From positions 2,976,001 through 3,040,000 of the forward strand of contig NZ_LT629781.1 in the NCBI RefSeq assembly GCF_900105685.1: 64,000 nucleotides of DNA. Direction: 5' to 3'. The notes beneath the pieces are model-generated. The model made no database searches. It had not been told where the DNA came from and saw only the letters and a program-made list of their open reading frames with translations. Position 1 is the first letter of the stretch, and every line of letters starts with the position of its first letter. The DNA is from Verrucomicrobium sp. GAS474 (GTDB lineage Bacteria; Verrucomicrobiota; Verrucomicrobiia; Methylacidiphilales; GAS474). Positions 5,022 to 7,711 of this stretch are shown here, piece after piece. A program made the position numbers and the translations under genes.

Positions 5022-5378
5022 CTACTCGACCGGGCGGCGGCGGTCCTGCTTCACCACGGAGCGGAGCTTCTTCGTCTTCAGGATCTTTTCCTTCAACCCC
5101 CGGGGACGGGGCGACCGGCGGCGGCGGCGCAGGGAGGCCTCGCTCTTGATGAGGGCGCGGCGCTCGGCGGCGATCTTGTCGAGCCGCTCGGCGAGGCGCT
5201 GGCGGGCCAGCTCGCGGTTCTGCTCCCGGTGACGCGTGTCCTCGACGCGGACGGTGATCCCCGTGGGCTTGTGCTTCAGGATGACGGCGGTATTGACCTT
5301 GTTCACGTTCTGCCCGCCGGGCCCCGAGGAACGGCAGAACGACTCGACGAGGTCGTCCTCGTGGAAGGGAAGCCTCAT
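5022..5378 (-). CDS. Short release-factor-like protein with GGQ motif (ribosome rescue type)
   Basis: The 118-residue protein consists of the peptidyl-tRNA hydrolysing RF domain: SSGPGGQNVNKVNTAV with GGQ at 21-23, then KHKPTGITVRVEDTRHREQN, and a strongly basic tail (SLRRRRRSPRPRG...KKLRSVVKQDRRRP). It lacks the codon-recognition domains of RF1/RF2. ArfB (YaeJ) has a comparable plan with a basic tail that enters the empty mRNA channel; the stretch after GGQ looks closer to the mitochondrial rescue factor mtRF-R (C12orf65) and RF domain 3 than to ArfB. The likely role is freeing peptides on stalled ribosomes or split large subunits. It follows the FlgC-like gene by 28 bases on the same strand. 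Confidence 0.85.
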   Translation of the reverse strand: MRLPFHEDDLVESFCRSSGPGGQNVNKVNTAVILKHKPTGITVRVEDTRHREQNRELARQRLAERLDKIAAERRALIKSEASLRRRRRSPRPRGLKEKILKTKKLRSVVKQDRRRPVE

Positions 5379-5406
5379 GATCCCGGCGTTTGCGATAAGC
5401 CGGGGG

Positions 5407-5742
5407 CTAGGAAAGGAGCTGGATCGCCCGCTGCTGCATCCGGTCGGAGACCTGGAGCGCCTTCACGTTCGCCTCGAAACCCCGCTGGGCGACGAGCGTA
5501 CCGACGAGCTCGGTCGCCGCGTCGACGTTGGAGAACTCGGAAGCCGCCTCGGGATTGAGCGGCGAGCCCGCCCGGCTGATCGAGACCGTCACGCCGGTCC
5601 CGGCGGGCGTCGCCTCGGTGTCGACGGTCCGCGAGGCCTCGAAGCCGGGGGTCGAGATGTTGGCGATGTTGTTCGCCGCGATGTCGGCCCGGGTCTGATT
5701 GGCCTGAAGACCGGTGAGGGAGGTATTGATGCCGGAGCTCAT
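5407..5742 (-). CDS. Short FlgC-like flagellar basal-body rod protein
   Basis: The 111-residue protein has the N-terminal rod motif (SLTGLQANQTRADIAANNIA, then NISTPGF, residues 8-34) and the C-terminal rod domain (NVDAATELVGTLVAQRGFEA, about 72-91, running to the end). These are the coiled-coil ends that stack in the rod; the middle is reduced to about 35 residues, so the protein is slightly shorter than typical FlgC (about 135). No other flagellar structural gene lies in this window. It may be the rod protein of a flagellum encoded elsewhere or a stand-alone paralogue. The ATG at 5742 is the only start that keeps the full N-terminal motif. Confidence 0.85.
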   Translation of the reverse strand: MSSGINTSLTGLQANQTRADIAANNIANISTPGFEASRTVDTEATPAGTGVTVSISRAGSPLNPEAASEFSNVDAATELVGTLVAQRGFEANVKALQVSDRMQQRAIQLLS

Positions 5743-5808
5743 ACAGCAACCTTACTCCCATTCGCATCTTAAATCCAACTACCAAATGTATCTAACCCTA
5801 GACAATTA

Positions 5809-7176
5809 TTACTCTATTTTTAATGCAGTACTTTGAGCTAATAAGATTGGTCTTGCCCAATCCGAGAACGCTTTGCCTTTTGAATAAGCAAAATCTTGCA
5901 GCATCTCTTTTTCTACGGTGGTTACCCTTATGGCAATAAGATGCTTGCGAACATGCTCGTTAGATGTTGAAACCTCGTATTTTCTGAAGGCCGATATCGA
6001 TGACGTTAAATGCTCCTCATATCCACTTAAACCTTGAAGACGCAGCTTGATTAACTGGCTTTCCTCTTTAAATGCTTCAATTAAGACTGGACGTGCCCAA
6101 TCTGAAAATGACTTAGCAGCAGCATCAGAAAAACTTCTCATTAGATGCTTTTCCTTTGTAGTCACTCGGATAGCCAAAAGATGACGCCGAATATGAACAC
6201 TAGGCTCTGCACGTTGCTGTATTAAGAGAGTGGAAGCCACTGACTTTATACTTTCCTCACTTCCACGCATCTCCGTAGCTCGTCGCCGAGCCGCCGCGAC
6301 GGCTTTCTGAAGGGAGTCTTCCCAGCCGGCTTCGGCGAGGACATTGCATCCGGCGACCGTCGTCCCGCCCGGGCTCTTCACCTGGTCGGCGAGGGCGATG
6401 GGGGAGAGGTCGGAGGCTCCCACCATCTTCGCCGCGCCGATGGCGGTCTGGACGGCGAGCTGCTTCGCCACGGCGGGGCTCAGCCCCTCGGCGATCCCGC
6501 CCGCGATCAGGGCGTTGAGGAAGTGGTAGACGTAGGCGGGACCGCTCCCGCTGACGGCGGTGACGGCGTCGAGGAGCGGCTCCTCGACCCGGACGGCGGT
6601 GCCGACGGCGGCGAGCAGGGCCTGGGCGACGGCAAGGTCGCCTTCCGTCGCGTGCCGTCCGGGAGCATAACCGGTGATCCCCTCGCCGATCAGGGCCGGG
6701 GTGTTCGGCATCGCCCGGACGATCCGCGTCCCCTCCCCCAGCAGGACTTCGATCCGGTCGGTCGTGATTCCCGCCATGAGGGAGAGGAAGAGGGGCTTCT
6801 CCTCGCGTCCCGCCAACGTCTCCCGCAGCGTCGGCAGGATCTCGGCGGCCTGCGCCGGCTTGATGCCGAGGATGACGACGTCGGACTGGGAGACCAACTC
6901 GAGGTTCGTCTCGCTCGGCGTGACCGAGACGGGACCGGCCGAGCCGAGCGCGTCGAAGAACTGGGTGAGCGTGTTCGCGGTCCGGGCCGTCGCGGTGAGG
7001 GTGCGGAGGAAGGAGGGGTTCGCCTTGGCGATGCCGATCGCCATCGCCCGGGCCATCTTTCCGGCGCCGAGGAAGCCGACGGTCTTGCGTTCATCGCGCG
7101 GATCGAAGCCGTCGAAGGGATCGAATGGATTCAGGTCGTTCACGTCGGCAGGGGATTCGGACGATTCAGGATTCAT
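5809..7176 (-). CDS. proC: Pyrroline-5-carboxylate reductase with C-terminal tandem ribbon-helix-helix-like extension
   Basis: The 455-residue protein is far longer than usual ProC (about 265-280). Residues 32-303 are ProC: Rossmann motif [10 protein letters not shown] (33-42), [16 protein letters not shown] (155-170), [11 protein letters not shown] (209-219), and the family signature [13 protein letters not shown] (264-276). It reduces pyrroline-5-carboxylate to proline with NAD(P)H. Residues 304-455 are foreign to the family. They hold two repeats exactly 80 residues apart, [10 protein letters not shown]...FSDWARPVL (331-365) and [10 protein letters not shown]...FSDWARPIL (411-445), each shaped like a ribbon-helix-helix unit. 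The DNA of this tail is clearly AT-rich against its neighbours, with different codon use, so it was probably acquired. An acidic 31-residue N-terminal extension overlaps the aroK stop by 11 bases. A separate gene starting inside (for example ATG 6270) is possible, but the frame is open throughout. Confidence 0.88.
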
Positions 7177-7711
7177 GGAAGGTGCTTTGGTAAAGGGCGA
7201 GGATCTCGGCCCCGATCGCGTCGGGCTTCCGCTGCTCGGCGTCGATGACGTGATGGGCCTTGCGGTAATCTTCCTCCCGTTTCGCCAGGAGGCAGCGGAG
7301 GGTCGCGATGCGGTCCTCGGCGGCGGCCGTGACGTTGGAAGCCGCCCCCAGCAGGGGCCGGTTCGTCGCCGTCGCGGTGCGGAGGGCGAGCATCTCCGCG
7401 GAGGCGTGGAGATAGAAGACAATGCCCCGGTCGAGGAGGAGGCGGCGGTTCTCCGCGTCGACGAAGAGGCCTCCCCCCGTCGAGAGGACGCCGGGGACCC
7501 GGGCCACCGTCTCCGCGAGGATCGCCCGCTCCAGCTCCCGGAAACCGGCCTCGCCCGATTCCTCGAAGATCGCCGGGATCGTCTTCCCGGCGCGGCGCTC
7601 GATGAGGGCGTCGGTGTCGTAGAACGGCAGCCCCCCGGCGCGGTGGAGCCATTCGGCCACGGTCGATTTGCCGGAGCCCATCATGCCGACGAGGACAAGG
7701 TGCTTGTTCAC
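7166..7711 (-). CDS. aroK: Shikimate kinase
   Basis: The 181-residue protein phosphorylates shikimate at the 3-hydroxyl with ATP. Walker A is GMMGSGKST (9-17). The shikimate-binding Asp lies in [16 protein letters not shown] (30-45), followed by [13 protein letters not shown] and the substrate loop STGGGLF; the lid Arg is in ATNRPLL. It starts with GTG at 7711, which puts the Walker motif at the standard distance. It is divergent from aroC (54 bases between starts), grouping two chorismate-pathway enzymes at one promoter region, and its 3' end overlaps proC by 11 bases, suggesting co-transcription. Confidence 0.95.

Follow-up and report, generated by a model that had tools for sequence, protein, structure and literature searches.

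A likely in-frame fusion of proC with an AT-rich tandem RHH gene fragment of probable foreign origin in Verrucomicrobium sp. GAS474

In the genome of Verrucomicrobium sp. GAS474, an open reading frame of 455 residues runs on the reverse strand from position 7176 to position 5809 of the window, i.e., the whole stretch of 64,000 nucleotides that was analyzed. Residues 1-303 form a complete ProC and the remaining 152 constitute a C-terminal tail. The features of the locus, in the coordinates of the window, are as follows.

7166..7711, minus strand: aroK-like shikimate kinase gene, overlapping the start of proC (NF010552, 136 bits, below the cut-off of 186)
6268..7176, minus strand: proC core, pyrroline-5-carboxylate reductase, residues 1-303 (TIGR00112, P5CR_dimer)
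6255..6272, minus strand: direct repeat, proC-side copy, aligned to 5750-5769
5809..6267, minus strand: in-frame AT-rich tail, 152 codons and TAA, an open frame absent in 19 relatives (GC3 0.325)
6073..6195, minus strand: predicted RHH domain copy 1, best stretch for DUF6290 (PF19807), 56% identical to copy 2 over 39 aa
5839..5961, minus strand: predicted RHH domain copy 2, best stretch for NikA-like (PF21983), 79% identical to a stand-alone paralog
5750..5769, minus strand: direct repeat, far-side copy, at the lower change-point interval
5743..5808, no strand: AT-rich non-coding end of the putative insert, to the next gene (GC 0.379; change-point support 5692-5767)
5407..5742, minus strand: gene for a short flagellar rod/hook-like protein of 111 aa, right flank of the putative insert (profile scan)

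The assignment of the core to ProC is firm, the profile TIGR00112 being covered over its full length (1-263 of 263) with 238 bits for a cut-off of 196.75, and P5CR_dimer being likewise complete (1-105 of 105). In a profile search of the genome, the fusion gene is the sole ProC match above the cut-off. Past the core, the base composition changes abruptly. Indeed, GC falls to 0.409 over positions 5809-6270, compared with a mean of 0.653 (sd 0.046) for 462-bp stretches across the window, of which this is the lowest. A two-boundary likelihood fit, which gains 68.6 log-likelihood units over uniform GC, delimits the low-GC segment to 5724-6262; the 3-unit support intervals are 6249-6285 for the upper edge and 5692-5767 for the lower one. 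The sharp drop that the sequence-only reading had located at the end of ProC homology is thus borne out, the more so as the DNA identity with a congener stops at 6268. The same reading had confined the island to the gene; on this side it has to be amended, since GC stays low past the gene end, to about 5724-5767, the island extending some 40-85 bp beyond the stop codon at 5809. The putative insert would hence consist of ~0.5 kb of DNA, both coding and non-coding. The codon usage of the tail, also said to be unlike that of the flanks, is clearly so: GC3 is 0.887 in the ProC part but 0.325 in the tail, and the mean relative codon log-probability goes from 0.435 to -0.826, a value outside the whole comparison set of 650 sliding pieces of 154 codons from the other ORFs of the window (minimum -0.211). 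Elsewhere in the genome, 20 stretches of 20 kb (400 kb in total) contained four further islands below 0.45 GC, in three of the stretches, which makes AT-rich islands uncommon in this genome, though not unique. These four have ORFs of their own according to the ORF lists, and an informal look at these lists revealed no fusion resembling the present one.

Two RHH domains are predicted in the tail by Pfam and NCBIfam profiles. The whole tail scores 32.4 bits with the NikA-like family and 31.2 bits with DUF6290, the cut-off being 27 in both cases, and it thereby belongs to the RHH superfamily as judged by a profile above its gathering score; taken singly, each copy falls below the Pfam cut-off in a six-frame search of the genome. 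With the RelB antitoxin profile NF046040, the tail reaches 35.9 bits, below the equivalog cut-off of 50. Structure models of the tail contain helices without strand, at low confidence (pLDDT 45.3 for the tail by itself, 54.7 when four relatives were added), and a comparison of the tail with solved structures found no match. A frame of this length was kept open in none of 20,000 composition shuffles, and the added 152 codons are non-random and encode an evolved protein. The DNA of the putative insert is single-copy in its own genome, where the other NikA-like matches fall either in frames of unrelated genes or in one short RHH-like ORF close to the ends of the contig (ORFs judged by eye).

Among the relatives examined, the tail is a singular feature. 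The fusion protein was searched against 60 genomes, its own included, of which 48 gave a match. Outside its own genome, the ProC alignments end mostly at query positions 302-318, the exceptions being one that ends at 293, one that reaches 331 through two stops and one that ends at 221 near a contig end. Among the 47 other genomes with a match, 19 loci were examined for the tail and none carries it: their ProC frame stops 2-18 residues past the last aligned residue (query 289-303), i.e., at about positions 303-311. In the congener G002, the DNA can be aligned to that of GAS474 (G000) as far as the ATG at 6268 and a stop follows after two more codons, the gene after proC being the same flagellar-like gene as in the window. 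The comparison of orthologous proC 3' ends, which had been suggested as a check, therefore confirms the discontinuity. Across 62 genomes of the order, a search with the tail matched only two, its own and G002, in the latter case a stand-alone paralog and not a ProC tail; in a phylum sample, it matched one genome out of 387, its own. With the RHH domain as query, weak matches were obtained in 10 of 286 genomes of the class at E 0.01 (its own and the congener included) and in 2 of 387 genomes of the phylum at E 0.001 (its own included), those in G468, G446 and G486 sitting in short ORFs.

On these data, a fragment of a foreign tandem-RHH gene was most likely acquired recently and joined in frame to proC, a reading to which we assign a probability of roughly 0.7. 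An AT-rich foreign piece of ~0.5 kb with a tandem RHH pair would have been inserted between proC and the next gene, probably in one event, at most 9 bases from the old proC stop as seen in G002. With this stop lost and the frame continuing, the single ProC of the organism would terminate in two RHH domains, and the fused protein is presumably made. Its recent horizontal origin is suggested by the codon use of the tail, which is unameliorated. In-frame capture of a foreign coding piece at the old stop, as proposed at the outset, is supported by a ProC complete to residue 303, a stop two codons further on in the congener and an evolved RHH tail that none of the relatives examined has; the captured piece would also include an AT-rich non-coding end past the new stop. 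As a rule, foreign genes that are captured remain separate genes. Horizontal acquisition is a common event with, here, an unusual outcome, in which a core enzyme captures a tandem RHH gene in frame. A foreign DNA-binding gene apparently now extends the C-terminus of a housekeeping enzyme that is left almost intact, and the composition still marks the junction.

Flanking duplications, which the sequence-only reading had named as a possible mark of insertion, have tentative counterparts here. An imperfect direct repeat of 18-20 bp lies at both composition edges, its shuffle p of 0.01 under strict and 0.0475 under loose scoring being suggestive, and a 10-base inverted match near the insert ends has a shuffle p of 0.011. 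These tests were simple mononucleotide shuffles with several looks and, as the inverted match scores about as well as the direct repeat, the repeats may be due to chance. Moreover, the proC frame read from the far repeat copy meets no stop for ~400 bases, until about 5375 (ORF 5375-5785), which argues against a simple target-site duplication that restored a normal proC end. The signals for a target-site duplication or a terminal inverted repeat are hence suggestive at most. Regarding the donor, searches found no relative in IMG/VR viral contigs or phage records; a search of genome contigs with the tail gave no match, and with the domain alignment only the paralog of the congener. A plasmid search returned one weak match, an Acidisarcina plasmid gene located two genes away from one for a MobF relaxase. 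Neither relaxase, oriT nor toxin was identified in the putative insert, whose ~0.5 kb are taken up by one ORF and a short flank.

A stand-alone, single-domain and GC-rich RHH gene, whose domain is identical to copy 2 at 79% over 43 aa, is present in GAS474 and in the congener G002.

G000:C1:372161-372334: stand-alone RHH domain, own genome (copy 2 match at G000:C1:372182-372310)
G002:C299, about 5800-6075: stand-alone RHH gene, congener

Both genes adjoin a LytTR-type response regulator gene (that of the congener was profile-scanned). Their proteins are identical over 41 codons, with 0.022 non-synonymous and 0.55 synonymous differences by a simple count, and the stand-alone domain is under purifying selection. 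Over 41 codons, copy 2 differs from the G000 paralog at 11, 3 and 31 first, second and third codon positions, and from the G002 paralog at 12, 3 and 28. The predominance of third-position differences indicates that the domain was maintained by selection across its history, not specifically since the fusion. In both species, the short RHH gene has a GRPPKP stretch before the domain (L002 1465-1812; L023 5665-6075) and is preceded by a shared upstream sequence, TTTCATCGTAATACGCTTAACAAATTGT, found once in the genome, at the stand-alone paralog; the 18-base core of this motif has no copy in the 64-kb window with up to three mismatches. Despite its closeness to copy 2, the stand-alone gene is thus set apart from the tail by its single domain, its GC-rich composition, its GRPPKP stretch and its position beside a LytTR-type regulator.

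The main rival to the fusion, though considerably less probable, is that the RHH pair was acquired as a gene in its own right that lies immediately 3' of proC, coupled to it and with its own ATG or GTG start, ProC itself ending within a few codons; the continuous frame would then result from an assembly indel or from a recent real frameshift near 6255-6268. Indeed, a single indel near 6260 would split the fusion, which therefore depends on one reading frame of the assembly. Single-base indels do occur in this assembly: the two ends of its single contig (L081 1-12536 and L082 1152-13691) overlap over 12.5 kb, where they are 99.87% identical and differ by 16 such indels without any substitution; these are probably the ends of an untrimmed circular, long-read assembly with edge errors. 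However, all 16 indels fall within C1:348-3065, in the initial 3.1 kb, and no difference affects the remaining 9.4 kb that the ends share; in the window, 54.6 of the 64 kb are spanned by 36 ORFs with a length of 150 aa or more, and frequent frame breaks are not apparent there. In-frame start candidates are available for a separate gene (ATG at 6268-6270, GTG at 6238-6240), and a TGA lies 9 bases past the junction in one other frame and a TAA 20 bases past it in the third, but stops in other frames are expected by chance, and a scan of 5600-6500 revealed neither promoter-like nor terminator-like sites. Of note, the contig end L081 also contains a tandem array with a 27-bp period, at about 6952-7481.

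Considering again the fusion of the RHH pair to proC, its most likely present state is that of a tolerated tail, in which the RHH pair may fold independently into a one-chain RHH dimer, next to a reductase that remains functional. A more ambitious and, in our opinion, improbable possibility is that the fused pair has turned ProC into a DNA-binding, self-regulating enzyme, the biosynthetic counterpart of trifunctional PutA. In PutA, the RHH domain carried by the proline-catabolic enzymes is an autorepressor, a precedent for an RHH domain acting as a repressor on a proline enzyme (PMC5293562). Moreover, the RHH core residues are kept in the tail and purifying selection has acted across the history of the domain. 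Against self-regulation, the tail occurs in one species only, the core of the paralog upstream motif is absent from the window with its one genome copy at the paralog, and both structure models are of low confidence and without strand (pLDDT 45 and 55). The likeness to PutA lies in an RHH DNA-binding domain on a proline-metabolism enzyme; whereas in PutA a single RHH domain precedes the catabolic enzymes at the N-terminus, the fusion has two predicted RHH domains at the C-terminus of a biosynthetic reductase, and a Pfam scan showed that the proline dehydrogenase and P5C dehydrogenase domains are absent from the fusion. NikA-like and DUF6290 proteins, the families matched by both tail copies, are relaxosome accessory factors and RelB-type antitoxins; unlike them, the tail has two domains per chain and is fused to an enzyme. 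Among the titles of the matches listed in a literature search, no ProC-RHH fusion was found. That ProC with its C-terminal one-chain RHH dimer might be a newborn moonlighting regulator linking proline synthesis to transcription, of an origin independent of PutA and derived from a plasmid-type RHH gene captured at a stop codon, is a speculation of equally low likelihood. The proC-RHH gene is in any case a testable case for the origin of proteins that combine an enzyme with a DNA-binding domain, such as PutA. Finally, it is extremely improbable that no transfer took place and that the low GC is native to the region or due to drift of proC: AT-rich islands do exist elsewhere in the genome (four in the 400 kb sampled), but the break is preceded by a complete ProC and followed by a different domain family, and none of the 19 relatives examined has the tail, grounds on which this explanation was rejected.

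Regarding the neighboring genes, the flagellar-like protein encoded at 5407-5742 matches both ends of FlgE, FlgG and FlgC, is far shorter than most of them and adjoins proC in the congener too. Further downstream, positions 5022-5378 encode a release-factor-like protein of 118 aa (PrfH/ArfB type, all matches below the cut-off) that is conserved in the congener. On the other side, aroK and proC of the congener G001 constitute one open frame of 442 aa (contig C9; L025 2929-4257); as they are separate overlapping genes in the window, this represents a second fusion in the same gene cluster.
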